Shown here: one piece after another, positions 12,997 to 35,750 of the stretch
Layout: each line of letters opens with the position of its first letter
Position numbering within the stretch: position 1 is the stretch's first letter
Assembly (NCBI GenBank): GCA_021161255.1
Contig: JAGHAZ010000040.1
Span: forward strand, 1 to 39,553
DNA: 39,553 nucleotides
Direction of reading: 5' to 3'
Source: Candidatus Bathyarchaeota archaeon
GTDB lineage: Archaea; Thermoproteota; CALKCG01; B24
Position numbers and translations under genes: made by a program
The notes under the pieces: model-generated
Seen by the model: the letters and a program-made list of their open reading frames with translations, nothing else
What the model was told of the DNA's origin: nothing
Database searches by the model: none

Positions 12997-14019
12997 CTAA
13001 TAGAGTTTCTTAACCTTGATGTATTCTCCCGGTCTGCCTGAGCCTACCACGACCCTATATCTCTCTCCTTCACCTGAGACAGGGACCTCTCGTTCTAGAA
13101 GCCCTCTGACCTCGAGTAGATCACCCTCATAGGCCAAACCCCTATATGTACTATCCATGGCTATGACCTCTCTAGGCCTCATCTCCGGCGGAAGTCTAGA
13201 CTCCTCGTTAGCAGCTCGATATTCTGAGATCTTATAAATCGCCGGTCTGAAGTAGGATTCTTCAGCCGACTCCACCATGCATCTGAACTTCACCGTTTTT
13301 ATCGGCATCCTCTTGTAAGCCCCATAAACGTCCCGTATCTCCTCCTTTCTCCTCACGGCGTTAAAAACTACTTTAACGTCTTTATAGAGAACCTTGTTAC
13401 GCCTATGCTTGTCAAACTCGTTCTCGTAAAGAGGTTTCATGATTTTTTTATACACAAGTCTCCTTACAGTGTTGTGAACACGCCTGTAGTTTGACGCCCC
13501 ATATATGACCACGTCGATGTCCGGTTTCTCAGACTCCATACCGAGACAGAGCGAACCGTGGATCCCGAAGAATTTTAAGTCTAAATCAGCCTTCGAAGCT
13601 ACGAGCCTTATCCATTCTATAGCGATCTTCTCCAACTGGCTAGGTTCCTTTTTAGCGAGAAGCTCGGATAAACGTTCCTTCGGCCTAAAGACTTTCTCTA
13701 TAGACTCCTTTGGAACCGTTATTAACGTTTTAGAATTATACGGACAATTATACAGGTATTGGGGGAAATTTTTCTCAAAGACCTCGATGAATTTTTTGAA
13801 GTTCTCTGGACTATAGAGTTTAGCCGGTCTGACATATCTTTGGTCTTTAAGCTTCCAAGTCCACGGCAAAAACTCGATGTCGAACAGGTTCTTAAGCGAT
13901 TCGGGGATATATTTAACATAGGCTATATAGCGATCTTCAGGATGCTCGTATCCGAATATGTAAAAGATCAACCCCTCTCTCGTTTGAACCGCATCACCGT
14001 CGATAAGTCTCTCAGTCAT
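12997..14019 (-). CDS. Archaeal predicted nucleotidyltransferase (pol-beta superfamily)
   Basis: 340 residues. The N-terminal about 95 residues form a domain shared with the broken downstream copy (FYIFGYEHPEDRYIAYVKYI). The central region has the pol-beta-type nucleotidyltransferase core: HGSLCLG (154-160) followed by DIDVVIYG (167-174), giving the GS and two metal-binding Asp residues; a third acidic residue probably lies further on. The C-terminal about 60 residues are a small beta domain (EVRGLLEREVPVSGEGERYRVVVG), OB-like in pattern. It resembles the uncharacterised archaeal nucleotidyltransferases of COG1665 (number from memory, not checked). Substrate unknown; RNA or a small molecule are both possible. 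It is the first gene of a two-gene tandem duplication. ATG start, weak ribosome binding site. Confidence 0.7.
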   Translation of the reverse strand: MTERLIDGDAVQTREGLIFYIFGYEHPEDRYIAYVKYIPESLKNLFDIEFLPWTWKLKDQRYVRPAKLYSPENFKKFIEVFEKNFPQYLYNCPYNSKTLITVPKESIEKVFRPKERLSELLAKKEPSQLEKIAIEWIRLVASKADLDLKFFGIHGSLCLGMESEKPDIDVVIYGASNYRRVHNTVRRLVYKKIMKPLYENEFDKHRRNKVLYKDVKVVFNAVRRKEEIRDVYGAYKRMPIKTVKFRCMVESAEESYFRPAIYKISEYRAANEESRLPPEMRPREVIAMDSTYRGLAYEGDLLEVRGLLEREVPVSGEGERYRVVVGSGRPGEYIKVKKLY

Positions 14020-21054: not shown

Positions 21055-21070
21055 AAGGGGCCTTAAGTAG

Positions 21071-21080
21071 AGTTTTAAAG
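21071..21080 (-). promoter_or_regulatory. TATA box of valS
   Basis: CTTTAAAACT on the minus strand, centred about 22-25 nt before the ATG at 21054. It shows valS has its own promoter and is not only read through from ileS (gap 87 nt). Confidence 0.5.
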
Positions 21081-21141
21081 ATTATCGTCGATCATGATAA
21101 GGGAAGAAGAATCAGAGCGGTAAACCCGACGGAGATGCGTT

Positions 21142-24100
21142 TTACCTAAGTCTGTTTATTCCTATGAGGTACTTCCCGTCTTCCAAGTCCCACTCTTTAC
21201 GATACTCTGTCTTCGGTATCTCCTCCGTCGTCAGTACAAGCCTCTTAGCTCGCACCTCACCCGCTATGTAATCCCTCATGGTTTCCAAGAGGTTCAAAGA
21301 CTCCACGTTAGGAGCTTTAACGTAAACCTCTACGTATGCATCCACCGGAAGATCCATCTCCTTACGCATATACTGCACCCTCCTGACGACGTCTCTACCC
21401 AACCCCTCGGCCTGTAGAGCCTTGTCTATCCTCGTGTCTAGATACAGAAAACCGTGGCTAAACTCGGTGTAGGCCAAACCCTCCCTGAGCGTCTTCTCTA
21501 CAGATACGTGTTCAGGTCTGACCTCGAAGACCTCTCCTTCGACCTCGAGTATGCACCTACCCGATTCCCTGAGCTCTTTAAGCTGGTTCGGAGTTAGACC
21601 CTTTATAGCCTCCGCCACTAAGGGAGCTTTAGACCTAAATTCCCTTCCCACAGCAGACATATTAGGCGTGGCTTTCTCCACCCATAGCGTCTTCTCCTCG
21701 TCAGACTTGAGAAGCAAAACCTCTTTAACGTTAACTTGCTCCTTAAGCACGTCTGTCAAGGGTTTAAGCTTCTCGGCTAACGCTTCAGGAATACGCAGAT
21801 ATAGCCTTTTAACAGGTTGTCTAAGCTTTAACCCAGCCCTCTGTCTAACCTTAGCAGAAGCCTCGACTACCTCCCTAGCGACTTCCATAGCCTCCTCCAG
21901 AGTCGGATTCTTCCACATAGGGTCGGGCTTAGGCCACCTGTTCATGTGTATGCTCTCGGGTAGGTTCGGCTCCGCGGGTCTGAAGACGTGCTGGTAGATC
22001 TTTTCAGTTATAAACGGTATGACGGGAGCCGCGAGTATAAGGAACGTCTTAAGCACATTATATAGAACGCTGTAGGATGCGAGTTTCTCAGGGTCTTCCT
22101 CCTCTATCCACGTCTTACGGCGTATAAGTCTGATGTACCATCTACTCACATCTTCGACCATGAAATCTCTAAGCATCCTAACGGCTTCGTGGATATGGTA
22201 ACTCTCGAAGCTCTCAGTAACGCTCTCGATTAAACGCTGCGTTCTGGAGAGAATCCATAGGTCTTCAGGCTTCATATGGCCCTTAACCTTCTCCAAGCTC
22301 CATTTCGATGGGTTAAACTTATCTAAATTCATGTAGGTCGATGCGAACACGTAAACGTTCCAAAGAATATTCATGAAAGACAAGGTCTCCTTAACACCTT
22401 TCCAAGAGAACCTCAGGTCTTCCCATAGGGTATGCTGAAGCTCGTAAAACCTTAGGATGTCTCTGCCAAACTTCTCTATAACCTCCTCCGGGGCTATGTA
22501 GTTGCCCCAAGACTTATGCATCTCTCTACCGGTTTCATCTAGCACGAATCCATGCATTGCCACAGACTTATAAGGCGCCGAGCCGAAAACCAGAATACCG
22601 CACGCCAGTAGCGAGTAGAACCATCCCCTTGTCTGGTCATGACCCTCGACCACGAAGTCCACTGGATACCATTCCTTAAGCCCTTTATCGCTAGACGGGT
22701 ATCCGAGCGACGCCCAGGACGCCGACCCGGAATCCATCCAGACATCAACGACATCCAGAACCCTACGCATTTCTCCTCCGCATTCGCATCTTAAAACGAC
22801 TTTATCGACCCATGGTCTATGAAGCTTGACATCCTTCCCCTTAGACGCTTCGAGAAGTTCCCTCTTAGAGCCTATGACCCTACGCTTACCACATTTGCGG
22901 CATATCCATATCGGCAGTGGAACCCCCCAGTATCTCTGCCGGGAGATCACCCAGTCCGATATACCCCTAAGCCAGTTTCCGAACCTATTCTTACCTGCCC
23001 ACTCAGGTATCCACTTCACCTTACTGTTCTCTTTAAGCAAAAGGTCTCTGAGCCTACTCATCCTTATGACCCATTGCCTAGTAGCTCTTAGCAGTAGAGG
23101 GGTTTTGCACCTCCAACAGTGTGGATACCTGTGAACTACTGTTCCGCTGTAGAGTAGAAGCCCTTTCCTACGTAGGTCCTCGATTATCAATGGGTCTGCG
23201 TCTTTCACGTAAAGACCCGCGTATTTACCAGCCTCATCCGTGAACCTACCTGCCTCATCTACAGGCGAAACCACCGGTAAACCGTAGCGCATACCTACCT
23301 CGAAGTCCTCCTCACCATGACCGGGAGCCGAATGGACGAGGCCTGTTCCCTCGGTCAAATACACGTATTCCTCAGATAGGACAACCTTATGGGCATCTTT
23401 AAGGTTCCTCTGAACCGGTACCTCTTCGGCTAACGGAGGCTTATACCGCAACCCCTCAAGCTTACTACCTTCAAACGTCTCTAAAATCTCGTAGCTGAGA
23501 CCAGTTTCTTCAAAAACCGGGTCGACCCGTTCCTCGGCCAGGATGTAGACTTCATCCTCGACCTTAACCTTCGCATATCTATAATTTGGATGCGCCATGA
23601 CGGCTACGTTAGCGGGTAGGGTCCAAGGCGTTGTAGTCCATATGAGGAGATACTCTCCCTCCCTACCTTCAACCGGGAACTTCACGTATATCGACGGGTC
23701 CTCTACATCCCTATACTCCTGCGAAACCTCATAACCGGCGGCTAAAGCGGTCTCACACCTAGGACACCAATGGGTAACTCTTAGCGTGTTCTCTAGTAGA
23801 CCTAGCTCCTCAGCCCTCTTGATGACGAGCCACACGGCCTCTATGTATTCATCCTTGATCGTCATGTAGGGGTTTTCCCAATCCATCCAAACGCCTAGGT
23901 TCTTAAACTGCTTAGTGAGGATCCGGAGGTTTCTGAGGGCGAATTTTTTACACTCCTCGACGAAATTATCTATGCCGATATGCTCCTCTATCTCCTTCTT
24001 GCTCCTTATTCCAAGGGACTTCTCGACCATAACCTCTATCGGCAGCCCATGCATATCGAAGCCTGGTCTGTCCCTGACCTTTAAGCCTCTCATCCGTTTA

Positions 24101-24315
24101 TACCGAAGCACACTATCCTTGATCACCTTATTCCATGCCGTCCCGAGGTGTATGGAGCTAGTGACGTAAGGCGGTCCGTCTAAGAAATAGAACTTCTCAC
24201 CGTTTTCAGAAGACCTTTTGACCTTCTCATATATCCTATTTTCCTTCCACCAACGGAAGATCTCCTCCTCAACTTTTTTAGGTTCATAGCGTTTAGGTAG
24301 AAGACCTACATACAT
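21142..24315 (-). CDS. ileS: Isoleucyl-tRNA synthetase
   Basis: 1057 residues from the ATG at 24315, which begins MYVGLLPKRYEPKKVEEEI as expected for archaeal IleRS. A GTG at 24396 would add 27 residues rich in Ser, Asn and His that do not look like the family; I prefer the shorter form, whose start has a partial AAGTGAT site. It charges tRNA-Ile and edits Val. Landmarks: PPYVTSSIHLGTAWN (HLGT for HIGH, about residue 50-57), editing domain with WTTTPWTLPANVAV and GHGEEDFEVG, zinc-binding CPRC, CWRC and CRKCGK, EMHKSWGN (about 598-605) for KMSKS, and the anticodon-binding and C-terminal zinc-less extension. Full length. Located upstream of valS, same strand. Confidence 0.95.
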   Translation of the reverse strand: MYVGLLPKRYEPKKVEEEIFRWWKENRIYEKVKRSSENGEKFYFLDGPPYVTSSIHLGTAWNKVIKDSVLRYKRMRGLKVRDRPGFDMHGLPIEVMVEKSLGIRSKKEIEEHIGIDNFVEECKKFALRNLRILTKQFKNLGVWMDWENPYMTIKDEYIEAVWLVIKRAEELGLLENTLRVTHWCPRCETALAAGYEVSQEYRDVEDPSIYVKFPVEGREGEYLLIWTTTPWTLPANVAVMAHPNYRYAKVKVEDEVYILAEERVDPVFEETGLSYEILETFEGSKLEGLRYKPPLAEEVPVQRNLKDAHKVVLSEEYVYLTEGTGLVHSAPGHGEEDFEVGMRYGLPVVSPVDEAGRFTDEAGKYAGLYVKDADPLIIEDLRRKGLLLYSGTVVHRYPHCWRCKTPLLLRATRQWVIRMSRLRDLLLKENSKVKWIPEWAGKNRFGNWLRGISDWVISRQRYWGVPLPIWICRKCGKRRVIGSKRELLEASKGKDVKLHRPWVDKVVLRCECGGEMRRVLDVVDVWMDSGSASWASLGYPSSDKGLKEWYPVDFVVEGHDQTRGWFYSLLACGILVFGSAPYKSVAMHGFVLDETGREMHKSWGNYIAPEEVIEKFGRDILRFYELQHTLWEDLRFSWKGVKETLSFMNILWNVYVFASTYMNLDKFNPSKWSLEKVKGHMKPEDLWILSRTQRLIESVTESFESYHIHEAVRMLRDFMVEDVSRWYIRLIRRKTWIEEEDPEKLASYSVLYNVLKTFLILAAPVIPFITEKIYQHVFRPAEPNLPESIHMNRWPKPDPMWKNPTLEEAMEVAREVVEASAKVRQRAGLKLRQPVKRLYLRIPEALAEKLKPLTDVLKEQVNVKEVLLLKSDEEKTLWVEKATPNMSAVGREFRSKAPLVAEAIKGLTPNQLKELRESGRCILEVEGEVFEVRPEHVSVEKTLREGLAYTEFSHGFLYLDTRIDKALQAEGLGRDVVRRVQYMRKEMDLPVDAYVEVYVKAPNVESLNLLETMRDYIAGEVRAKRLVLTTEEIPKTEYRKEWDLEDGKYLIGINRLR

Positions 24316-24430
24316 GTAATCACTTCCCTTAGAGTTTGGATTTCTAGAATGTCCACATGACGAGAAGCTATGTTTAGTGCTTAATTTTTGAACCACCCAT
24401 CGTCCTCAAGCACATAGTAACCATAAAGGT

Positions 24431-24444
24431 TAGTATTTAAAAGT
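24431..24444. promoter_or_regulatory. Shared AT box between divergent ileS and nucS
   Basis: GTATTTAAAAG (24433-24443). Rightwards it predicts a start near 24465, 11 nt before the nucS TTG; leftwards (CTTTTAAATAC) near 24412, giving a leader of about 97 nt before the preferred ileS ATG. Confidence 0.5.
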
Positions 24445-24475
24445 TGTGTAGACGCTTATGAGTTAGAGAGGCGGT

Positions 24476-25246
24476 TTGACAGGGTTCATAGTTCAAAACC
24501 CGACTTTAGAGCAATGCTTAAAAGTCGTCAAGATGGGGATCGGAGCTAGAAGGCTTCTCATTATGCTCGGAGAGCTACGCGTAGACTACTTCGGTAGAGG
24601 GAGTTCTGAGCTTGATTATGGAGAGAGGCTTCTCATAGTTAAAGGTGACGGGTCTCTTCTGGTACATAGGCCGACGAACGTCGAGCCTGTGAACTGGCAG
24701 CCTCCTGGAAGCCTATATAGGGCTTACGTCAAGAGGGGTTTACTCGTCCTAGAGGCTTACCGCAAAAGACCTGAGGAGAGGGTGAGAGTAACGTTCAGAC
24801 GGGTTTCCCTAGTCGGCGTCTACCATCTTAAAGATGAAGCTGAATTCAAACTCTACACAGCCGAGGAGATCATGAAGAAGGCTTTCATAAAGAGACCTGA
24901 CCTTGTGGAGAAAGGGCTTAGGGTAGTTATGGAAGAGAAGAGGCTTAGGGCCGGTCTGGTGGACTGTTTCTGTGTGGATTCGTCGAACAGGCCGGTGGTC
25001 GTCGAGTTCAAAAAGGACAGAGCCAGCGTTGAAGCAGTCGAGCAGCTTTCGAGATATGTCGATGAGCTTAGGAGGGGAAACCCCGAGGTCAGAGGAATAC
25101 TCGTGGCGCCATCGATAACCAGGAAAGCTCTCGAAAGAGCTAGGTCTCTGAACCTCGAATACCGCAGGCTCGACGTTCGGAGATGCATAAGGGTTTTAGA
25201 GTCCATAGGAGAATCTGTTAAGCCCCTCGAATACTTCGAGGGCTAA
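24476..25246 (+). CDS. nucS: Mismatch-specific endonuclease EndoMS/NucS
   Basis: 256 residues, normal family length. NucS dimers cut both strands at mismatches (G-T, G-G, T-T) and give a MutS/MutL-independent repair route. N-terminal dimerisation/DNA-binding domain (1-about 125) with the hallmark VNWQPPGS (72-79); C-terminal RecB-like nuclease domain with AGLVD (D163) and VVVEFKK (E177, K179). The 14-residue spacing from Asp to Glu equals that of the Pyrococcus enzyme (D160/E174/K176). TTG start with GAGAGG 4 nt upstream. First gene of a plus-strand series leading to DNA polymerase B. A terminal PCNA-binding motif is not evident (ends PLEYFEG). Confidence 0.93.
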   Translation: MTGFIVQNPTLEQCLKVVKMGIGARRLLIMLGELRVDYFGRGSSELDYGERLLIVKGDGSLLVHRPTNVEPVNWQPPGSLYRAYVKRGLLVLEAYRKRPEERVRVTFRRVSLVGVYHLKDEAEFKLYTAEEIMKKAFIKRPDLVEKGLRVVMEEKRLRAGLVDCFCVDSSNRPVVVEFKKDRASVEAVEQLSRYVDELRRGNPEVRGILVAPSITRKALERARSLNLEYRRLDVRRCIRVLESIGESVKPLEYFEG

Positions 25247-25282
25247 CTTTAAATTAAATGCTAATCCTTAAACTTTAGGGCT

Positions 25283-25546
25283 ATGGGGGTTTACGGCTTA
25301 GACCCTGTGACGTTGGGTTTGGTTATGGTAGTAATCGGAGTAGCCTTAGTTTTCATAGGTATTGTGGCGGAGTTTCTTAGAAGCGTTAGAGGAGGTACCA
25401 AGGTTAAAGTCGGGGGAGCCGTTTTAATAGGACCTTTTCCGATAGTTTTCGGAGATAGGGAGCTTGTGAAGTACTCTTTCATACTTCTATTGGTCTTAGT
25501 CGTTTTAACTATAATATTTATGGTGATCCCGGGTGTCTTGAGATGA
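25283..25546 (+). CDS. DUF131 / TIGR00304 family small membrane protein
   Basis: 87 residues with two membrane helices (about 8-29 and 64-84) joined by a short loop that carries the family signature GGAVLIGPFPIVFGD (44-58). The family is archaeal and of unknown function. It overlaps the next gene by 4 nt (ATGA), so the two are translationally coupled, and it follows nucS by 36 nt. Confidence 0.85.
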   Translation: MGVYGLDPVTLGLVMVVIGVALVFIGIVAEFLRSVRGGTKVKVGGAVLIGPFPIVFGDRELVKYSFILLLVLVVLTIIFMVIPGVLR

Positions 25547-25956
25547 CTGTTCTATGCGAAGTCTGCGGTCGGTTCGAGGCTAGGTACGTATGTCGGGAAT
25601 GCGGGGCTAGGGTATGCCCCATGTGCTTCGACCAGTCTACGCTGCTTTGTGTAAACTGTTTACACAGAGAGGAGCTGGCAAAACAGGAAAGCTACACTGA
25701 GACGGAGTTTCCTATAGGGTTTAAGCTTATCCTCGCGGGGTTCGTATTAACGTTTATAGGCATACTAACCATCGTTTTAGCTACTCTAGCGAGCAATAGG
25801 ATAGGTGACATAAGCTTTGTGATCCTTCTTCTTCCAATACCCTTGGGCGTCGTAGTAGGCCCCTATGGCTGGCTTCTCCTTATAGTGGCGTTGATTTTAA
25901 CAGCGGTCCTCATGTTTCTGATCGTTAGGTTGGGGAAACGTTTAAGACTACCATAA
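25543..25956 (+). CDS. Zinc-finger (B-box-like) membrane protein
   Basis: 137 residues. The N-terminal about 42 residues hold four CxxC-type pairs: CEVC, CREC, CPMC and CVNC, with one His (HRE) after the last, a B-box-like zinc site in the cytoplasm. Then come two to three membrane helices (about 58-82, 91-105 and 108-130) and a basic tail. This form (zinc finger plus helices, paired with a DUF131 protein) is seen in archaea; its function is unknown. It starts inside the DUF131 stop codon. Confidence 0.75.
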   Translation: MTVLCEVCGRFEARYVCRECGARVCPMCFDQSTLLCVNCLHREELAKQESYTETEFPIGFKLILAGFVLTFIGILTIVLATLASNRIGDISFVILLLPIPLGVVVGPYGWLLLIVALILTAVLMFLIVRLGKRLRLP

Positions 25957-25987
25957 CTTGTAATGGTTATGCGAAAGGTGTCTCTGT

Positions 25988-26650
25988 TTGGCTAGAGGCG
26001 GCTTACTCGCAAGCTGGCTCACTAAGAGGAGACGTAGTAAGAGTATAGACCTTGCGTACAGGCAGATGAAGAACTCAGTCGAGACCGTTAACGAACTCAA
26101 GAGGTGTCTCTCCGCTGTTATAGGGGAGAGGCTTCCTGAAGCTAGAAAAAGCATCGAGAGGCTTTTCCTTATGGAAGCAGACATAGACGAGCTTAGGAGA
26201 AGGGTTTTCGCCGAGCTTTCTAGAGAGGAGGAAGCGTCCAAGTTTAGGGAAGACCTGATGCGTCTCGTCTGGGGCTTAGACGTCATGGCGGACCACATTA
26301 AAGACTCTGCCAGAAACCTTCTCATACTCCTAGACGAGAACGTTTCTCCAGACCTTTGGGGTAAATATCTTAAGCTCGTGGAGGACCTAGTTTCCTGTGC
26401 TCAAGCACTTCTTAAGGCCATAGAGACACTCGCCGGTAGGGGAAGAGAAGCTATACGGTATATCGAAGAAGTCGATAGATTTGAAGAACGCATAGATGAG
26501 CAGTATTTAGCGATCAGAAAGACGCTTATCAAGTCTGAGGATCTAAAACCTGGCGTACTCATGGCTCTGAGGGACCTACTCGAATTCCTCGAAAGAGCCG
26601 CAGATATGTGTGCAGACACGGCGGATTACGTTAGGCTTCTCTTAGTTTAG
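25988..26650 (+). CDS. PhoU-like / DUF47 family helical protein
   Basis: 220 residues, all-helical, matching the DUF47 (PhoU-like) pattern: an N-terminal basic segment, then two helical hairpins with acidic metal-binding repeats (EADIDELRRRVFAEL at about 59-73 and EVDRFEERIDEQY at about 158-170) and the terminal DLLEFLERAADMCADTADYV (about 196-215). Such proteins bind multinuclear iron and often sit beside PitA-type phosphate transporters; no such transporter is adjacent. TTG start (25988), 31 nt after the zinc-finger gene. Confidence 0.8.
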   Translation: MARGGLLASWLTKRRRSKSIDLAYRQMKNSVETVNELKRCLSAVIGERLPEARKSIERLFLMEADIDELRRRVFAELSREEEASKFREDLMRLVWGLDVMADHIKDSARNLLILLDENVSPDLWGKYLKLVEDLVSCAQALLKAIETLAGRGREAIRYIEEVDRFEERIDEQYLAIRKTLIKSEDLKPGVLMALRDLLEFLERAADMCADTADYVRLLLV

Positions 26651-26698
26651 CCGGTGAAAACTTATCAGACGTAAGGGTTAAATTAGAGATCGAGCGCG

Positions 26699-29038
26699 TT
26701 GACTGAAGTTAGATTTTACCTCCTAGACTTAGACTATAGGTTTAGAAGCGGCAGGACCGAGGTTAGGCTCTGGGGCATAACCGACGGAGGGGGGAGAGTC
26801 GTCTTATTCGACAGATCCCTTAGACCGTACTTCTATGTCGTAACCGAAAAACCAGAATTTCTTGAGCCGACCTTAAAGGATGTTCCAGGAGTCGGGGGTT
26901 ACGAGCTTAAGCAGGTCAAACTGTTCGGAAGACCCGTTAACGCGTTCAAGGTTTACGTGTCGAACCTGGATAAGTTGGAATCCGTGGCTAAGACGGTTTC
27001 CAAACTCGACGGCTCTAGCGGGGTTTACGAGGACGACCTACGTCATAGTCAGCATTATCTGTTGGACTATGATGTTAAACCGTGTGGATGGCACGTAGTC
27101 GAGGTCGAGAAGGTCGATAGAGACGGGCTCAAAGTCGACGGAGCCTATAAGGTTTTAACCCCTCCTAAGGCGATAGAACACGTAGGCCGCGTTGCGTTTA
27201 GGGTTTTAGCGTTTTACATGGTTCCATTACCGTCAAGAGGCTCTCCCAAACCCGAACGAGATAGGATCGCTTGTTTAGCCGTCAGGACCAACGACGGGTT
27301 TGAGGAGGTTTTAGACTCTGAAAGACTCAGCGAGAGAGAAGTGTTGCAGAGGTTCATCGAAATAGTCGACGAGTTCGACCCGGATATAATAGTGGGTTAT
27401 GGAACAAACAGGAGGGACTGGGAGTATCTAATTAAACGGGCGAAGATAAACGGTTTAGTTCTCAAATTCGGTAGGGATGGGGCTGAGCCTCATAGAAGCC
27501 TCTACGGGCATATTTCGATAGCGGGTAGGATCGCGTTAGACCTGTATGACTACGCCGAGGATATACCGGATATAAAGATCAAAACGCTTGAGAACCTTGC
27601 TTCATACATAGGGGCGGAGATTAAGGCCGAGCCTCTAGAGGAGCCCGATATAGCGGCTCTATGGGCTACCTCAGAAGGTAGACAGAGGGTCTTAGAGTAC
27701 TCGGCCGATAGATGTAGGCTTGTGATGGAGGCTTTCGAGGAGTTCATCGAGTATGGATGTCAGCTGTCGAACCTCGTCTGCATACCCCTAGACCACGTAT
27801 GCACAGCTGCCGTAGGTTTCAGGGTGGAGTCTTACCTTATGAAATGTAGCCGGCTCTTCGGCGAGCTGATACCTAAACGCGTCGAGAAACCCTACAGACC
27901 ATATGCAGGAGCCATAGTTCTAAACCCTAAGCCCGGTTTACACGAGAACATAGCTGTCCTAGACTTTAGATCTATGTACCCTAACATAATGATGAAGTAT
28001 AATGTGTCACCTGACACATACGTCGAGCCTGAGGTCGAAGTCGACCCAGAAGACGTCTACGTCGCCCCAGAGGTCGGTCACAGGTTTCTGAAGAAGCCTG
28101 ACGGGTTCTATAGGGAGGCTCTTAGGAGGCTACTAGAGGCTAGGGCTGAGGTTAGGCAAAGGCTTAAGGGGTTGAACCCTGAATCCGCTGAGTATAGAGT
28201 CTTAGACGCTAGGCAGAGGGCCATCAAAGTCGTCACGAACGCCGTATACGGCTACGCCGGGTGGATAGGCGCCAGATGGTATAGACGCCCCATAGCAGAG
28301 GCTACGACCGCTTGGGGCCGGGAGACCCTTAGAAAGACCATAGAATACGCGAGGAGCATAGGTCTCGACATAATCTACGGCGACACAGATTCAATATTCG
28401 TCCGATACGACGAGGATAAGGTGGAGAAGCTCATCCGCTACGTAGCCGAACATGAAGGTTTGGAGATAAAGCCAGACGCGATATATGTTAGGATAATATT
28501 CACCGAAGCCAAAAAGCGATATGCCGGAATCCTCACAGACGGTAGAGTAGATATCGTGGGTCTAGAAGCGGTTAGAGGCGATTGGTGCGAAGCTGCGAGA
28601 AGAATTCAGAGAGAAGTAATCAAGATAATACTCGAAACGGGTTCACCGGACAGAGCAGTTGAGAAAGCTAGAGACCTGATCGCAGAGGTTAAGGCGGGCA
28701 AGGTTCCGCTCAGGGAGCTTGTCATATGGAAGGCCATAACGAGACCTATCGAAGAGTATAGGGTTAGGGCACCACATGTCGAGGCGGCTAAGAGGCTTAT
28801 TAAAATGGGCTGGGAGGTTGAACCGGGCGACAAGGTGGGCTTCGTGATCGTTAGGGGTAGCGGTAAACTCTATGATAGGGTTCAGCCCTATCAGTTCGTC
28901 AAGCAGGAGGATGTGGACTATAGCTATTACGTCGAGAATCAGGTTCTGCCTGCTGTGTTGAGGGTGCTTAAAGTGTTCGACTATGATAGAGACTCTTTAG
29001 AGACCGTTAGGCAGAAGGGGCAGATGAGACTATTCTAG
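26699..29038 (+). CDS. polB: Family B DNA polymerase with degenerate exonuclease motifs
   Basis: 779 residues. Polymerase motifs are intact: motif A DFRSMYPN (422-429, Asp422), motif B K510 to N514-Y517-G518 (KVVTNAVYG), motif C YGDTDS (560-565, Asp562 and Asp564). The proofreading domain is not: where family members read LAFDIE, this one reads LAFYMV (171-176), so both Exo I acids are gone; Exo II is GYGTNRRD (233-240) with only Asp240 kept; Exo III is YSADR (334-338), where the fourth residue after Tyr is Arg. The N-terminal domain (1-165) is normal, with a uracil-pocket-like PYFYV segment. The C-terminus ends QKGQMRLF, possibly a weak PCNA-binding tail. Predicted: active polymerase without proofreading. 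TTG start; AT box near 26660. Confidence 0.92.
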   Translation: MTEVRFYLLDLDYRFRSGRTEVRLWGITDGGGRVVLFDRSLRPYFYVVTEKPEFLEPTLKDVPGVGGYELKQVKLFGRPVNAFKVYVSNLDKLESVAKTVSKLDGSSGVYEDDLRHSQHYLLDYDVKPCGWHVVEVEKVDRDGLKVDGAYKVLTPPKAIEHVGRVAFRVLAFYMVPLPSRGSPKPERDRIACLAVRTNDGFEEVLDSERLSEREVLQRFIEIVDEFDPDIIVGYGTNRRDWEYLIKRAKINGLVLKFGRDGAEPHRSLYGHISIAGRIALDLYDYAEDIPDIKIKTLENLASYIGAEIKAEPLEEPDIAALWATSEGRQRVLEYSADRCRLVMEAFEEFIEYGCQLSNLVCIPLDHVCTAAVGFRVESYLMKCSRLFGELIPKRVEKPYRPYAGAIVLNPKPGLHENIAVLDFRSMYPNIMMKYNVSPDTYVEPEVEVDPEDVYVAPEVGHRFLKKPDGFYREALRRLLEARAEVRQRLKGLNPESAEYRVLDARQRAIKVVTNAVYGYAGWIGARWYRRPIAEATTAWGRETLRKTIEYARSIGLDIIYGDTDSIFVRYDEDKVEKLIRYVAEHEGLEIKPDAIYVRIIFTEAKKRYAGILTDGRVDIVGLEAVRGDWCEAARRIQREVIKIILETGSPDRAVEKARDLIAEVKAGKVPLRELVIWKAITRPIEEYRVRAPHVEAAKRLIKMGWEVEPGDKVGFVIVRGSGKLYDRVQPYQFVKQEDVDYSYYVENQVLPAVLRVLKVFDYDRDSLETVRQKGQMRLF

Positions 29039-29099
29039 CGTTAAGATTTAAGTAACCCGTCTTTACGTATAGTTTTAGCTTCGGAGGTCTAGGTGCTCC

Positions 29100-30182
29100 T
29101 TGTCCATAGATCCATGGGGCTCAGAAATCATAGAGGATTATGAGAGGATCTTCGTAGACTTCGGCGTAAAGAGGATCCCTGAGCATATTAGGACCGGTCT
29201 TAAACACATAAGCTTCGAGAGGGGAATTGTGATCGGTCACAGGGATTTCGAGAAGGTCTACCAAAGAATAGTCTCCGGTAGACCCTTCATAAACATGACG
29301 GGAATAGCTACCTCGGGAGAGCTCCACTTTGGGCATAAGATGATCATAGATATCTTCAAGTTCTTCAAGGATTGTGGGGGTAGAAACTACTTCGCCATCT
29401 GCGACATAGACGCCTATGTGAGTAGACCTGACAGTAGGATTCCGAGTCTAGAAGTCGCTAAGAAGTATGCTGTCGAAAACTTGTCGCATGCATTAGCCCT
29501 GGGGTTGGATGAGAAGGACGTCTATGTTCAAAGCCGTAAGGAAAGGAGATACTACGAGTTCGCCTTCGAACTTTCCAAGAAAATAACCGAAAGCGCTTTC
29601 AGAGCCATATACGGGCATCTAGACATAGGTAAGGTAGCGGCTAATCTGCTTCAGTATGCCGACATACTTCACCCTCAGCTTCCGGAGTATGAGGGGAAGA
29701 TGCCTTCGGTGACCGTCATAGCCGCAGAGCAGGACCCGCATATAAGGGCGGTCAGAGATATAGCCGCCCGTCTACCATACGACTTTGAGCTTCCATCAGC
29801 TTTGATAATAGTTCACCTGCCGGGGCTTAAAGCCGGTAGAAAAATGTCTAAGAGCGAGCCTGAAACCTGTATCTTCCTCAAAGACGCCCCAGAGGTCGCG
29901 GCTAGGAAGATTATGAATGCCTTCACAGGTGGTCAGCCAACGGTCGAGGAGCAAAGAAAACTTGGGGGAAAGCCTGAGATCTGTAGGGTCTACGAGTTTC
30001 TCAAGTTTAATCATCCTGATAGCGCTATGCTTAGGAAGATGTATGAAGACTGTGTCTCAGGTAGGATACTGTGCGGTGAGTGTAAGCTCCTCACGGCAGA
30101 GTTCGTTAAACAATTCCTCGAAAGACATAGGGAAAAGTTGAAAGATGCCGTGGAGCTGGCTGAGAGAATCGTTTACGGATAA
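29100..30182 (+). CDS. trpS: Tryptophanyl-tRNA synthetase
   Basis: 360 residues, archaeal/eukaryotic-type TrpRS, which charges tRNA-Trp. GIATSGELHFGH (68-79) contains HFGH for HIGH, AGRKMSKS (about 243-250) is the KMSKS loop, and AAEQDPHIRAVRDIA (about 208-222) is the usual adenylate/Trp-site block. The N-terminal DPWG segment is typical of this branch. The TTG start has AGGTGCTCC directly upstream. It is the first of the trpS-pheS-pheT series, 61 nt after polB; ATTTAAG at about 29046-29052 is a possible promoter. Confidence 0.95.
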   Translation: MSIDPWGSEIIEDYERIFVDFGVKRIPEHIRTGLKHISFERGIVIGHRDFEKVYQRIVSGRPFINMTGIATSGELHFGHKMIIDIFKFFKDCGGRNYFAICDIDAYVSRPDSRIPSLEVAKKYAVENLSHALALGLDEKDVYVQSRKERRYYEFAFELSKKITESAFRAIYGHLDIGKVAANLLQYADILHPQLPEYEGKMPSVTVIAAEQDPHIRAVRDIAARLPYDFELPSALIIVHLPGLKAGRKMSKSEPETCIFLKDAPEVAARKIMNAFTGGQPTVEEQRKLGGKPEICRVYEFLKFNHPDSAMLRKMYEDCVSGRILCGECKLLTAEFVKQFLERHREKLKDAVELAERIVYG

Positions 30183-30195
30183 GAGGTGTAGGTAG

Positions 30196-31701
30196 TTGAA
30201 GGTTAGGCTTCTGGAGGGTGAGATGCAACTTCTTAAGGCCCTCGAAAAGTTTAATGGAGAGACCTACGACGAGAGGCTCGTCTCTGAGACCGGTTGGCCG
30301 TCTGACAAGGTTACTACTATGGCTTTGAACATGAGTGAGAGAGGGGTAGTGAAGGTCTCGGTCGAGGAGGAGGTTTGGATTTGGCTGACAGATGAGGGGT
30401 TAAGATATGCACGGATGGGACTACCTGAGAGGCGTATACTCGAGCAGGCTATGGCTAGAGGTGGAGTAAAAATTTCGAAGCTTGAAGGAGTTGAGGACTG
30501 GGAGAAACCCATAGGCTTGGCTTGGTTCAGGAGGAAGGGCTGGGGCGTTATACGAGGCGGTAGAGTAGAAGCGGCCGGTGAGTTCCCTAAGGGAGCCGAT
30601 GAGAAGCTTATAGAACTCATAGCCTCTAAGGGTAAGGTTCGTTTAACAGAGTTACCAGAGGAACTGAGAAAGACGGTTAAGACCTTGAAATCTAGAAGGC
30701 TTGTCGAGACCGGGAAGGTCACTAGAAGACTGATCTCTCTTACGGAATTGGGCTGGGGCGTTTTAAGGGGCGATGTCGAAGTTCTGGAGGAGGTTTCGAG
30801 GCTAACGAGAGACCTGATCGTCTCCGGCAGATGGAGAAATGTAATACTTAAGAAATACGACGTGTCGCTCCCCAGCTATAGGGCGCCTATAGGCCGGTTA
30901 CATTTCTGGAGAGAGATTTTAAACCACATCAGAAGGGTCTGGGTCGAGATGGGGTTCAAGGAAATGGAGGGGCCCATACTCGAGACATGCTTCTGGGACT
31001 ACGACGCCCTATACGTGCCTCAAGACCATCCTGCTAGAGACCTTCAGGATACGTTTTATGTTAAAACTCCTGGAAGAGGTAGGCTTCCGAATCCTGAGCT
31101 TGTCGATAGGGTTAGACGAACTCACGAAGATGGGTGGACTACGGGCTCGATAGGATGGAGGTACGAGTGGAGTGTCGAGGAGGCTAGGAGAACGCTGCTT
31201 AGAACTCATACGACCGCGGTATCGGTTAGAACTTTAGCGATCCTTAAGGAGGCCGAGCTACCTGCTAAGTTCTTCTCTGTCGGTAGGGTTTTCAGAAACG
31301 AGAAGCCAGACCGCACGCATCTATGCGAGTTCTACCAGACGGAGGGTATAGTAGTAGACGAGAACGCTAATATGAAGCACTTGGTAGGCTATCTCAGAGA
31401 GTTCTTCAAGAGACTTGGGTTTCCAGAGGCTAGATTCCGACCTGCATACTTCCCATATACCGAGCCGTCGCTAGAGGTCGAAGTATACCATCCACCGACA
31501 GGTAAGTGGATCGAGCTGGGTGGAGCTGGGATATTTAGACCCGAGGTCGTAAAGCCACTGTTAGGTAGAGATATCCCCGTTTTGGCATGGGGTCTCGGGC
31601 CTGAGAGGATGGTCATGCTAAACTACGGGCTTAAAGACATCAGAGAGTTGATCATGAACGACTTGGAGACGCTTAGGAGAGCACCGGTCTGGATGGGGTG
31701 A
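30196..31701 (+). CDS. pheS: Phenylalanyl-tRNA synthetase alpha subunit
   Basis: 501 residues, the long archaeal form. The N-terminal about 200 residues are winged-helix-like DNA/tRNA-binding repeats (e.g. WIWLTDEGLRYARMGLPE, LISLTELGWGVLRG); the C-terminal catalytic class II core has motif 2 VFRNEKPDRTHLCEF (about 374-388) and motif 3 around GAGIFRPEV and AWGLGPERMVML (about 443-478). It pairs with PheT to charge tRNA-Phe as an (alpha beta)2 complex. TTG start with GAGGTG 7 nt upstream; 13 nt after trpS and 6 nt before pheT. Confidence 0.95.
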   Translation: MKVRLLEGEMQLLKALEKFNGETYDERLVSETGWPSDKVTTMALNMSERGVVKVSVEEEVWIWLTDEGLRYARMGLPERRILEQAMARGGVKISKLEGVEDWEKPIGLAWFRRKGWGVIRGGRVEAAGEFPKGADEKLIELIASKGKVRLTELPEELRKTVKTLKSRRLVETGKVTRRLISLTELGWGVLRGDVEVLEEVSRLTRDLIVSGRWRNVILKKYDVSLPSYRAPIGRLHFWREILNHIRRVWVEMGFKEMEGPILETCFWDYDALYVPQDHPARDLQDTFYVKTPGRGRLPNPELVDRVRRTHEDGWTTGSIGWRYEWSVEEARRTLLRTHTTAVSVRTLAILKEAELPAKFFSVGRVFRNEKPDRTHLCEFYQTEGIVVDENANMKHLVGYLREFFKRLGFPEARFRPAYFPYTEPSLEVEVYHPPTGKWIELGGAGIFRPEVVKPLLGRDIPVLAWGLGPERMVMLNYGLKDIRELIMNDLETLRRAPVWMG

Positions 31702-31707
31702 AACAGC

Positions 31708-33402
31708 ATGCCGGTTATAAGAGTCGGATTAGAGGATTTCAGAAGACTGGTTGGGCTTAGGCTTTCCTTGAGTCGTCTTAGAGAGGAAATCCCTATGATG
31801 GGGCTAGGGTGGGAGAGAGATGACCCTGAGGGGTTTGAGGTAGAAGTCTTTCCCAATAGACCTGATATGCTTAGCCCCGAAGGACTTGCCAGGACCTATA
31901 AGGGGTTTATAGGTCTTGAGAGAGGTGTGCCTGATTACGTGGTTAAACGCGGTTTCTACGAGGCTTATGTAGACGCCGCCGTTAAATCCGTCAGGCCGTA
32001 TATAGCCTTCGCGACTATTAAAAACGTCCCCATGGATGAGGAGGTGTTTAAGAGCATCATCCAGATCCAGGAGAAGCTTCACATATCATATTGTAGAAAC
32101 CGTAGAAAGGGCTCTATCGGTGTCCACGACCTCGATAAGCTTAAACCCCCGGTGAGGTATACGGTTAAGCCTCTTAGCTTCAGGTTTAGACCGCTAGACT
32201 CTGAGGAAGAGATGAGTATACGTGAAATCCTTCGAAGACATCCGAAGGGCGTAGAATATGGCCATCTATTAAGCGGGTTTAAGTATTGCCCGATCTTAGA
32301 GGATTCTCAGGGCATGGTTCTATCCATGCCACCGGTGATAAACTCCGAGTACACGAGGGTAACCCTCGAAACCAAGAACCTCTTCATAGACTGCACAGGT
32401 CTAGACTGGAGGACCGTGAACTCCGTCTTAAATATAATAGCCACCTCCCTTGCAGAGCGGGGTTGCCAGATATACACCGTCAAGATTCACTATCCATACG
32501 ATACCCCCGTCGGTAAAGAGGTTGAAACCCCTGACCTAGCCCCTAGCGAGATGAAGCTTCCACTAAGCCTCGTCGATAAAGTCTTTGGTGAACATCTCGA
32601 TGCCGAAGAGGTCGTTAAACTCTTGGCTAAGATGAGGTTCGACGCGGTCAAGCTTTCTGAGGGAGAACTCCTCGTAAAGATCCCGGCGTATAGAGTCGAT
32701 ATAATGCACCCGGTGGACTTGGTTGAGGACGTTATCATAGCGTACGGCTACAATCTTATAGAGCCTGAGATCCCTCAGTTCGCGACCATAGGTGGTGAAA
32801 GCCTGTTAGAAAGATTTTCCTCTAAGGTTAGGAGTATCATGGTAGGCTTAGGCTACCAGGAGGTTATGACTGAGATTCTAACGAATCCCAGAGACCTGTT
32901 CGTTAAAATGAGAGTTAAACCTGAGCCTGTGGTGGAGCTTGAGAATCCTAAGACAGTCGAGTACACGGTCTGCAGGAGCTGGCTTCTACCCGGTTTGATG
33001 AAGGTTCTAGCTAGGAATAGACATAGGGAGTACCCGCAGAGGATATTCGAGGTCGACGACGTAGTCGTCTTAGACGAGAACTCCGAAACCGGAGGAAGAT
33101 CCCTCAGAAAGCTAGCTGCGGTATCGATACACTCAGAGGCCGACTACGCGGAGGTTAAAGCCGTAGTAGACACTTTTCTCGACATCCTTGCAGTCAAGCA
33201 CAGGGTCGAGCCAGGGATTCATCCGAGTTTCATAGATGGAAGGACAGGATTTATAAAAACCCTTAAGGGGGAGACCTTCGGATTCCTAGGCGAGATCCAT
33301 CCAGAGGTTCTGATAAACTTCGGATTAGAAAACCCTACGGTAGGGTTCGAGATAGACCTTGAGGCGATCATGAGGCTTAAGGGGTTTGGACGGAGACCCT
33401 AG
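31708..33402 (+). CDS. pheT: Phenylalanyl-tRNA synthetase beta subunit
   Basis: 564 residues, the archaeal/eukaryotic-size beta chain. The N-terminal B1-like part (MPVIRVGLEDFRRLVG) leads to the B3/B4 editing domain (about 90-270, e.g. CRNRRKGSIGVHDLDK), a B5 winged helix (about 275-345, ending VDLVEDVIIAYGYN) and the catalytic-like B6/B7 core (about 355-560, with GFLGEIHPEVL near the end). Its start ATG follows pheS by 6 nt, with GGGGTGA across the pheS stop as ribosome binding site. Last gene of the series. Confidence 0.95.
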   Translation: MPVIRVGLEDFRRLVGLRLSLSRLREEIPMMGLGWERDDPEGFEVEVFPNRPDMLSPEGLARTYKGFIGLERGVPDYVVKRGFYEAYVDAAVKSVRPYIAFATIKNVPMDEEVFKSIIQIQEKLHISYCRNRRKGSIGVHDLDKLKPPVRYTVKPLSFRFRPLDSEEEMSIREILRRHPKGVEYGHLLSGFKYCPILEDSQGMVLSMPPVINSEYTRVTLETKNLFIDCTGLDWRTVNSVLNIIATSLAERGCQIYTVKIHYPYDTPVGKEVETPDLAPSEMKLPLSLVDKVFGEHLDAEEVVKLLAKMRFDAVKLSEGELLVKIPAYRVDIMHPVDLVEDVIIAYGYNLIEPEIPQFATIGGESLLERFSSKVRSIMVGLGYQEVMTEILTNPRDLFVKMRVKPEPVVELENPKTVEYTVCRSWLLPGLMKVLARNRHREYPQRIFEVDDVVVLDENSETGGRSLRKLAAVSIHSEADYAEVKAVVDTFLDILAVKHRVEPGIHPSFIDGRTGFIKTLKGETFGFLGEIHPEVLINFGLENPTVGFEIDLEAIMRLKGFGRRP

Positions 33403-33406
33403 AAGG

Positions 33407-33492
33407 GTTCCATGCAGACGGACCCCTCCGAGAAGCCGGTAGGCTGGCTATGAGGACGGGGTTACCCAAGCATGGAACAGGCCCTATGGGCC
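33407..33492. ncRNA. Structured element between pheT and the small RNA promoter
   Basis: Starts 5 nt after the pheT stop. GTTCCATGC (33407-33415) pairs perfectly with GCATGGAAC (33470-33478); inside it ACCCCTCC pairs with GGACGGGGT with one bulged base, capped by a small AGCC/GGCT hairpin. A second hairpin, GGCCC-TAT-GGGCC (33480-33492), follows at once. Strand is undecided: no G-U pair tells them apart. It could be a stable 3' end of the phe mRNA, or a minus-strand RNA driven by TTTTATAA (33513-33506). I do not recognise a family, and it is not a tRNA. Confidence 0.45.
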
Positions 33493-33505
33493 GCAATCCA
33501 AACCC

Positions 33506-33513
33506 TTATAAAA
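33506..33513 (+). promoter_or_regulatory. TATA box of the 33.5-kb small RNA
   Basis: TTATAAAA, 26 nt before GGTGGGCACC at 33535, exactly where the long RNA helix begins. This is the most canonical TATA box in the window and precedes no reading frame. Confidence 0.7.
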
Positions 33514-33534
33514 CGGCCTACGAACCTCTCTGAC

Positions 33535-33669
33535 GGTGGGCACCTGGGTCCCATACGGAGAGAGCCGGCCGAGCAGGGCGTAGACGCCCTTCGATGACGC
33601 TTGGGTGTTAGTCGTATGGGATATAGACACCCAGGTGTCCACCCAGAGTATCGACTTCTAAATCTTTTT
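33535..33669 (+). ncRNA. Small rod-shaped non-coding RNA, family not recognised
   Basis: GGUGGGCACCUGGGU (33535-33549) pairs with ACCCAGGUGUCCACC (33629-33643), 15 bp with one G-U that would be an A-C mismatch on the other strand. CCCAUACG (33550-33557) pairs with CGUAUGGG (33613-33620), 8 bp. The two helices stack except for an 8-nt bulge AUAUAGAC (33621-33628) on the 3' side only. The 55-nt apical part includes AGGGCG-UAGA-CGCCCU (33575-33590). A T5 run follows at 33665-33669, so the RNA is about 110-135 nt. It lacks C/D boxes, a 3' ACA box, 5S rRNA shape and the SRP helix 8 motif. Confidence 0.65.
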
Positions 33670-33724
33670 AACGGAGTGCCAGGTATTTGGGATATCCGCC
33701 AAAGACTTGCATCGAGGTGGTTTA

Positions 33725-34579
33725 GTGAAACGACTTAGAAATTGGCTACTATTTTTGGTTGTTGTTTTGATATGGAGTTCTAACTGGCCGATTATGAAGG
33801 TGGGTCTAACTTATGTCGACCCGTGGAGCTTTATCTACCACAGGTTTCTACTGTCTACGACCGCTCTTTTTCTGCTTCTATTAATTTTAAAGAGGAAGGT
33901 CCCAACCGATAGAAGAGTTCTTGTTAGACTTTTCATACTAGGTCTTATCACAAGCATAGGGATAACATTGACGAGTTTAGGTTTAGTGTATGAGAAATCT
34001 GGGGTAAGCGCGATCTTGACGTATACCCAACCTTTATTCGTCTTCTGCATGGCTATACCGTTTTTAGGCGAGAAGGCTAGTATCGGTCGAGTTCTAGGCG
34101 TTTTCATAGGATTTCTAGGGGTTGTAGTCCTCTCTACTAGAGGCGGTAGCCTTATCGATAGACTTGATCTACCTGTTTTTCTCTTGGTAGCTGGTGCGTT
34201 TCTTTGGGCCGCCGCGATCATATATTACAAGAAGTTTCTAAGCCATGTAGACCCCGCCGTGACGAACATATTTCAGCTAGGAGTCGGCGTCGTCTTGCTT
34301 ACTCCGGTGATCGCTCTGAAGGGCTTAGCGTTCCCTCCTTCACTTGAATACATCCCAGTCATTCTCTACACATCGGTTTGTGCCCAAGGTGTGGCGTTAA
34401 CCCTATGGGTCCTCCTATTAAGAGAGGAGGAGGCGACCGTCCTATCTTCCTCAAGCTTTATGGTTCCGGTAGCTGCCTTCATGTTCGGGTGGCTGATACT
34501 CGGAGAAACAGTGGAGCCGAAGGTACTACTTGGGTCAGCTCTTATACTTACTGGTGTTTACATAGTCAATAAAATCTAG
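33725..34579 (+). CDS. EamA/DMT family transporter
   Basis: 284 residues from the GTG at 33725, chosen because GAGGTGG lies just upstream (33714-33720); a TTG at 33707 would place that site inside the gene. Ten membrane helices in two EamA repeats (about 1-138 and 150-284), with the typical WSSNWPIMK in helix 1, YTQPLFVFCMAIPFLGEKAS at the end of repeat 1 and LSSSSFMVPVAAFMFGWLILGE at the end of repeat 2. Drug/metabolite exporter; substrate unknown. CTTTTTAAC at 33664-33672 may be its TATA box and also overlaps the T-run that ends the small RNA. Confidence 0.88.
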   Translation: MKRLRNWLLFLVVVLIWSSNWPIMKVGLTYVDPWSFIYHRFLLSTTALFLLLLILKRKVPTDRRVLVRLFILGLITSIGITLTSLGLVYEKSGVSAILTYTQPLFVFCMAIPFLGEKASIGRVLGVFIGFLGVVVLSTRGGSLIDRLDLPVFLLVAGAFLWAAAIIYYKKFLSHVDPAVTNIFQLGVGVVLLTPVIALKGLAFPPSLEYIPVILYTSVCAQGVALTLWVLLLREEEATVLSSSSFMVPVAAFMFGWLILGETVEPKVLLGSALILTGVYIVNKI

Positions 34580-34610
34580 GCTATCCAAAGGGTCTTGAAC
34601 GTAGTAAACG

Positions 34611-34620
34611 TTTTTAAACC
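34611..34620 (+). promoter_or_regulatory. TATA box of the tyrS operon
   Basis: TTTTTAAACC after the transporter gene, predicting transcription start near 34641 and a leader of about 27 nt for tyrS. It would drive the four tightly packed genes that follow. Confidence 0.5.
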
Positions 34621-34667
34621 CGTAGGTTTTCTCCATGCTTATAGATTGGTTAGAGGGTTGACCTGGT

Positions 34668-35750
34668 TTGAAGGTCGAGGAAGCTGAAGCTCTGATCAAG
34701 AGAGGGCTTGAAGAAATTATAACAGAGGATAGACTTAGAACTCTTCTAGAGGAGGGTAGACGGTTAAGAGGTTATATAGGTGTCGAACCGTCGGGTTTGT
34801 TCACATTGGGATGGATTATATGGGCTCGTAAAGTTAAAGACCTCATAGACGTAGGCGTCGACTTCATCCTTCTGCAGGCGACGTGGCACGCGTGGATAAA
34901 CGATAAACTAGGCGGAAACCTAGAGAACATAAGGCTATGCGCCGAGTACATCGAACATTGTCTCCAGGCTTTAGGCATTCCTAGAGACGGCTATAAGGTC
35001 GTCTACGCAGACGAGCTCGTCTCTACAAGCGACTACTGGGGCATAGTGCTTAGAGTCGCGAAGTCTCTGACGTTGAAGAGGGTTAGAAGAGCCTTAACCA
35101 TAATGGGTCGTAGAGCCGAGGAGGGGGCTATGGATTTCTCTAAGCTCATATATCCATGTATGCAAGTGTCCGATATCTTCTACCTCGACCTAGACCTATG
35201 CCTCGGAGGTATGGATCAGAGAAGAGCCCACGTATTGGCCATCGAGGTCGCCAAAAGGCTTGGTAGGAAAAAGCCTGTGGCTCTTCATACACCCCTACTC
35301 ATAGGGCTCGCAGGCTTGGGTAGGATGGAGGGGGCTATAAAGGGAGAGGCGCTGTATGAGTTTAAGATGAGTAAGTCTAAGCCTGAAACCGCCATATTTG
35401 TACACGACACCGAAGAGGAGGTTGAGAAGAAGTTGTTGAAGGCTTACTGTCCTCCTAAGATGATCGAGAATAACCCGGTTCTAGAGATATGTCGTCTTAT
35501 ACTGTTTCCTGAGCCTGGGTTTAGACTTAAGATAGAAAGACCGCTGAAATATGGTGGAGACCTAGAGGTCCAAAGCTACGTCGAGCTTGAAGACCTATAC
35601 TTCAAAGGACAGCTACATCCTTTAGACCTCAAAAACGCCGTGGCTAGGGCTTTAAATGAAAAACTTAAGCCGGTTAGAGACTATTTTAAGACCGTAAACG
35701 AGGCGCGTGAACTCTACGAGAAGATGATGAGCTTAACGGTTACGAGGTGA
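34668..35750 (+). CDS. tyrS: Tyrosyl-tRNA synthetase with unusual HIGH motif
   Basis: 360 residues, archaeal TyrRS, which charges tRNA-Tyr. Tyr-binding residues known from the Methanocaldococcus enzyme are kept (Tyr36 in YIGVEPSG; the Asp in MQVSDIFYLDLDLCLGGMDQ). The KMSKS loop is FKMSKS (about 232-237), preceded by an insert relative to the Methanocaldococcus protein. The HIGH box (IHLGH there) reads FTLGW (45-49), so both His residues are replaced. The anticodon-side LHPLDLKNAVA block near the C-terminus is normal. TTG start; its TGA overlaps the alternative GTG of the next gene. Confidence 0.92.
   Translation: MKVEEAEALIKRGLEEIITEDRLRTLLEEGRRLRGYIGVEPSGLFTLGWIIWARKVKDLIDVGVDFILLQATWHAWINDKLGGNLENIRLCAEYIEHCLQALGIPRDGYKVVYADELVSTSDYWGIVLRVAKSLTLKRVRRALTIMGRRAEEGAMDFSKLIYPCMQVSDIFYLDLDLCLGGMDQRRAHVLAIEVAKRLGRKKPVALHTPLLIGLAGLGRMEGAIKGEALYEFKMSKSKPETAIFVHDTEEEVEKKLLKAYCPPKMIENNPVLEICRLILFPEPGFRLKIERPLKYGGDLEVQSYVELEDLYFKGQLHPLDLKNAVARALNEKLKPVRDYFKTVNEARELYEKMMSLTVTR

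Follow-up and report, generated by a model that had tools for sequence, protein, structure and literature searches.

Pol alpha is a family-B DNA polymerase that naturally lacks proofreading. The same holds for eukaryotic Pol zeta (PMC11791011) and for Sulfolobus PolB2/Dpo2, a natural exonuclease-less PolB whose in vitro activity is that of a lesion-bypass extender (PMC8764526). In the archaeal PolB1 and PolB3 groups, intact Exo I, II, and III motifs are the usual state (PMC5911459), a usual trait that does not define descent. The accessible parts of PMC4104785 and PMC7544198 treat PolB3 as active in replication or repair and give exonuclease decay for PolB2; we found no description of an exonuclease-less PolB3 branch in those parts or in the searchable literature, outside which most subscription journals lie. 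Here, we analyzed a DNA stretch of 39,553 nucleotides (contig JAGHAZ010000040.1 of a Candidatus Bathyarchaeota archaeon; referred to as the window) and a polymerase gene in it. The safest statement is that its product is a PolB3 by descent, predicted to be polymerase-active and to lack proofreading. Within the literature that could be searched, such a PolB3 branch appears to be new.

Polymerase and exonuclease sites

The polymerase open reading frame (ORF) matched Pfam DNA_pol_B (E value, 2.6e-68), while its match to the exonuclease domain was partial only. The closest solved structure was 5mdn (Pyrobaculum calidifontis PolB; E value, 6.4e-205), which aligned collinearly over the full length (residues 4-772). 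Together with the tree described below, these matches place the window protein, a full-length family-B DNA polymerase, in the PolB3 group. Its features are as follows.

26699..29038, plus strand: PolB3-group DNA polymerase, 779 aa, TTG start (Pfam, 5mdn alignment, tree)
27212..27223, plus strand: Exo I, FDIE changed to FYMV (Y173, V175; ungapped 5mdn alignment)
27392..27421, plus strand: Exo II, VGYGTNRRDW (YNSNGFD changed to YGTNRRD), only the Asp D240 kept (ungapped 5mdn alignment)
27698..27712, plus strand: Exo III, YVLDD changed to YSADR, R338 replacing the catalytic Asp at Tyr+4 (ungapped 5mdn alignment)
27962..27982, plus strand: polymerase motif A, DFRSMYP in the context LDFRSMYP (alignment)
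28211..28261, plus strand: polymerase motif B, RQRAIKVVTNAVYGYAG (alignment)
28376..28399, plus strand: polymerase motif C, YGDTDSIF (alignment)
29018..29035, plus strand: C-terminal GQMRLF, a shortened PIP-like (putative PCNA-interacting) tail (sequence, compared with tails of relatives)

The initial annotation, made from the sequence alone, had described intact polymerase motifs next to degenerate proofreading motifs, and both parts of this description held. Motifs A, B, and C (YGDTDS) and the KKRY motif were canonical. Furthermore, in an alignment of 120 PolB3 proteins sampled across Thermoproteota, in which the four exonuclease carboxylates were scored, the motif A Asp, the motif C Asp pair, the motif B Lys/Asn/Tyr, and the KKRY Lys/Tyr were kept in every protein, whether its exonuclease was intact or degenerate. 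The 5mdn alignment was free of gaps across all three Exo motifs, and each of the described Exo changes was recovered: three of the four catalytic 3'-5' exonuclease carboxylates were lost (D to Y, E to V, D kept, D to R), leaving one of four where a PolB3 usually has intact Exo I to III. The window protein is orthologous to P. calidifontis PolB3 and the crenarchaeal PolB3/Dpo3, with which it is collinear and shares the polymerase motifs; unlike it, these proteins retain all four carboxylates and the uracil pocket considered below.

Three other genomes shared the Y/V/D/R quartet: G001 of the set, which is Candidatus Bathyarchaeota archaeon B24 (98% identical), and two others of the window's family (69% identical). 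The changes are therefore not an error of the window's assembly, and a sequencing error was rejected as their cause. Indeed, all seven genomes examined of the window's class had a degenerate PolB3, and the 120 proteins split bimodally: 60 had all four carboxylates, 60 had zero to two, and none had three. The exonuclease-degenerate state is thus clade-wide in PolB3 and not an oddity of one contig. The initial annotation had missed this spread, along with the accompanying loss of the uracil pocket and the association with PolD described below.

Could the lost acids have been replaced from elsewhere in the domain? No replacement carboxylate was found near Exo I in the window protein. Two new conserved acidic positions were seen in the degenerate set: residue 315 (27641-27643) was acidic in 56 of 60 degenerate PolB3s, with other residues in intact proteins, and residue 351 (27749-27751) was acidic in 54 of 60, with Pro in 59 of the 60 intact proteins. 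An AlphaFold model had a mean pLDDT of 68 and a pTM of 0.46 (seven sequences), and pLDDT fell below 50 in much of the exonuclease domain; in Foldseek, the same poor model ranked 5mdn first with TM-scores of only ~0.46. Relocation of the exonuclease acids within the domain is unlikely, as judged from the alignment. Engineering of exo-minus PolB (D141A/E143A) targets exactly the two Exo I residues that have changed here, and the window protein lacks a third carboxylate as well; this strongly suggests that its exonuclease is inactive.

The polymerase part is under strong purifying selection: dN/dS was 0.034 between the window and B24 and 0.081 between two further genomes (G002 and G003). In the same two pairs, the exonuclease part gave 0.19 and 0.26, the window/B24 counts being small. 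The invariant motifs and this selection strongly suggest an active polymerase, and we regard the combination of active polymerase and inactive exonuclease as highly probable. At polymerase identities of 0.50-0.55, exonuclease-domain identity was 0.365 in degenerate pairs versus 0.492 in intact pairs. Since the degenerate domain was less conserved yet unchanged in length, it is probably retained as structure. Relaxation of the exonuclease and N-terminal domains, and repeated absence of the gene in relatives, would also suit a gene without a function of its own that is decaying toward loss. The low polymerase dN/dS and polymerase catalytic residues that are invariant in 60 degenerate proteins from 21 families make such decay quite improbable.

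Uracil pocket and descent of the degenerate branch

A uracil read-ahead pocket is a usual trait of archaeal PolBs. We mapped the residues lining it in KOD (PMC8596578) onto the 120-protein alignment (KOD numbering); since the Exo motifs align more securely than the N-terminal region, single pocket positions are more doubtful than the overall pattern.

26735..26737, plus strand: Tyr13, corresponding to Tyr7 of KOD/Pfu (uracil pocket), kept (alignment)
26966..26989, plus strand: pocket segment, residues 90-97, with Pro90 to Leu, Val93 to Leu, Pro94 to Glu, and Arg97 to Ala (alignment; PMC8596578)
27029..27055, plus strand: second pocket segment, residues 111-119, with Phe116 to His and Arg119 to His (alignment; PMC8596578)

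The window protein kept Tyr7, Pro36, and Tyr37 and had replacements of Pro90, Arg97, Phe116, and Arg119; the usual pocket was not found in it. Among the intact PolB3s, Tyr7, Pro36, Tyr37, Pro90, and Arg119 were invariant (60/60), position 97 was Arg in 59 and Lys in 1, and the six key pocket residues were complete in all 60. In the 60 degenerate PolB3s, Tyr7 was present in 24, Pro36 in 33, and Arg119 in 30. None had Arg97, which was Ala in 41; Lys97, and a complete set of key residues, occurred only in the protein from genome G176. Judged from this alignment, loss of the uracil read-ahead pocket accompanies exonuclease decay in the degenerate PolB3 clade, a feature newly described here, and members of the clade would not be expected to stall at template uracil. 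Engineered exo-minus PolB (D141A/E143A, to which TgoT adds V93Q) resembles the window protein in the two Exo I positions and in the altered pocket. The window protein differs in being natural, in having Arg at the D315 equivalent and Ala for Arg97, and in having Leu, not Gln, at the Val93 equivalent.

When only the polymerase domain was used for the tree, intact and degenerate PolB3s separated almost completely: two state changes were needed (shuffled mean, 40.3), corresponding to one large degenerate group and to G176 inside the intact group. The G176 protein looks like a separate, more recent loss, because it retains D173/E175, the pocket, Pro351, and Lys97. With PolB1 and other family-B proteins added, the degenerate PolB3s came out as a basal grade, a topology that implies several losses unless it is due to long-branch attraction. 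Since 57 of the 60 degenerate proteins share the absence of both Arg/Lys97 and Pro351, one main origin is tentatively favored.

Exonuclease decay and an extender function are traits of PolB2 (PMC8764526, PMC11791011), and some archaea of the TACK group have PolB2-group polymerases that retain a DxD motif C. The window protein might thus be one of these. However, 48 PolB3 rows, the window protein included, grouped at a support of 100 to the exclusion of PolB1 and the other family-B proteins, and the protein is collinear with Pyrobaculum PolB3 over its full length. Sulfolobus PolB2/Dpo2 is an active family-B polymerase without exonuclease, as the window protein is predicted to be, but it belongs to a separate clade, has an HxxxD motif C in most members and a larger loss of the exonuclease domain, and lies in its own operon with an inactivated RadA. 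Neither this RadA nor PPB2 was among the neighbors of the window gene, which are PhoU-like and TrpRS genes. PolB2 identity was rejected on tree placement, the canonical YGDTDS, and these neighbors, and we consider it exceedingly improbable; the distinction from crenarchaeal PolB2 drawn in the initial annotation was borne out. The likeness to Pol zeta, also a family-B enzyme, lies in the lack of proofreading, which is predicted for the window protein; Pol zeta and Pol alpha are multisubunit and not orthologous to PolB3 in particular.

Third family-B polymerases outside PolB3 were seen in several relatives (L162-L176; G004, G007, G016, G021, G049, G058, and others). Some had a PolB2 H-type motif C and some a canonical YGDTDS near PolB1; the PolB2-like ones, some with the H-type motif C, were placed away from PolB3 on the tree.

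Co-resident polymerases and probable role

The survey for other polymerases found two with proofreading motifs in the window's own genome, a 1.67-Mb draft that is 95.6% complete. It carries PolD (DP2, and DP1 with all five nuclease motifs SDIH, GDVVD, GNHD, YHG, and GHVH) and a PolB1 with intact exonuclease; family-B genes number only two. In this draft, there was no PF00817 match for PolY, and PolB2 was not detected. The PolB1 exonuclease was intact in 21 of 21 genomes checked, 17 of them with a degenerate PolB3; the loss is therefore specific to PolB3.

For the 115 of the 120 PolB3s that had a genome handle, we compared the exonuclease state with the presence of PolD; PolB3s of some PolD genomes (e.g., G137, G155, and G192) lay outside the sample. 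Genomes without PolD had 53 intact and 3 degenerate PolB3s, and genomes with PolD had 4 intact and 55 degenerate ones. In G016, G141, and G191, the three degenerate cases without PolD, its absence may reflect assembly gaps, since other members of their families carry it. By family, all 21 degenerate families had PolD, the 19 intact ones comprised 16 without and 3 with PolD (f34, f44, and f48), and none was mixed. Fisher's test gave 4e-24 by genome and 1.5e-8 by family, with rows treated as independent, though they are not. Degenerate PolB3 thus tracks PolD; because few independent losses lie behind this association, it is to be read as loss seen in PolD lineages and not as proof of cause. Moreover, Thermococcales have PolD together with a proofreading PolB (PMC13136892), so PolD presence is not sufficient for the loss. 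PolB3 was missing from 118 of 178 PolD-bearing genomes versus 17 of 121 genomes without PolD.

The co-resident polymerases and this patchy retention suggest an accessory repair or bypass role rather than that of main replicase. In the mechanism we propose, the chromosome would be copied by proofreading enzymes, PolD and probably PolB1. PolB3, still competent at synthesis but with neither 3'-5' proofreading nor read-ahead stalling at uracil, would be recruited by the clamp as an accessory enzyme for repair gap filling or for mismatch or lesion extension. Experiments on other archaea give indirect support: Thermococcus kodakarensis tolerates the D141A/E143A exo-minus form of PolB in place of its native gene (PMC13136892), deletion of PolB there causes damage sensitivity, marking it as a repair enzyme (PMC6759347), and the exonuclease-less Dpo2 of Sulfolobus acts as a translesion extender (PMC8764526). 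The recurrent double loss, in many families that also have a second replicase with proofreading, points to a branch re-tasked from genome copying to damage repair or bypass. On balance, we favor the complete chain, with moderate confidence. It is a tentative further step that an ancient PolB3 branch became damage tolerant in PolD-keeping archaea and serves as translesion polymerase where PolY and PolB2 are undetected, as here.

Several points weigh against an accessory repair or bypass role. PolY was present in 20 of the 56 genomes with degenerate PolB3 (36 without; among intact-PolB3 genomes, 2 with and 55 without), which speaks against a simple replacement of PolY by PolB3; complementarity of the two was rejected, as no simple relation held across the sample. 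The incompleteness of the draft means that the missing PolY and PolB2 are no proof of absence, and no damage-response or PolB2-type operon genes were among the neighbors. Furthermore, T. kodakarensis PolB also takes part in lagging-strand maturation (PMC13136892), which loss of proofreading could favor instead: without an idling exonuclease, PolB3 might be better at strand displacement and act in Okazaki maturation, with PolD doing bulk synthesis. The T. kodakarensis enzyme indeed maps to the lagging strand and beats PolD at strand displacement (PMC13136892), and most members keep PIP-like tails. A polymerase with a regular task in replication would hardly be expected to be missing from so many PolD genomes, the cell has PolB1 as well, and the loss of the uracil pocket would go unexplained; we therefore judge a lagging-strand polymerase unlikely, if still the strongest competitor. 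The lesion-bypass or repair enzyme that the initial annotation had offered as a possibility is accordingly favored but qualified by these points.

Whatever the role, the branch, found in at least 21 family-level lineages with PolD, offers a natural experiment on the division of labor among PolD, PolB1, and PolB3. Practical use is also possible, since these would be natural exonuclease-minus, pocket-altered enzymes, and the same traits are engineered into PCR and xeno nucleic acid (XNA) polymerases.

Gene neighborhood

Upstream of the polymerase gene lies an endonuclease gene.

24476..25246, plus strand: NucS/EndoMS-type endonuclease gene, ~1.45 kb upstream of PolB3 on the same strand

This position suggested another role, that of a main replicase whose errors are corrected by NucS/EndoMS mismatch cleavage, and the order NucS-DUF131-zfHIT-PhoU-PolB3 (upstream string, 24476-26650) was kept in B24 and G002. 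However, the linkage was confined to the window's family and was not seen in the other degenerate families examined, so NucS coupling was rejected as a general rule. Since the genome also encodes PolD and PolB1, both with intact proofreading motifs, and relatives often lack PolB3, we consider a main replicase improbable; among the options raised in the initial annotation, that of a replicase with its errors fixed elsewhere ranks last.

Elsewhere in the window, two ORFs gave no Pfam match, one of 864 aa (7010-9604) and one of 340 aa (12997-14019). Around the polymerase gene, six aminoacyl-tRNA synthetase genes lie within ~17 kb (18619-35750): two of the class-I I/L/M/V type, one of the Trp/Tyr type, PheS, PheT, and a second of the Trp/Tyr type.
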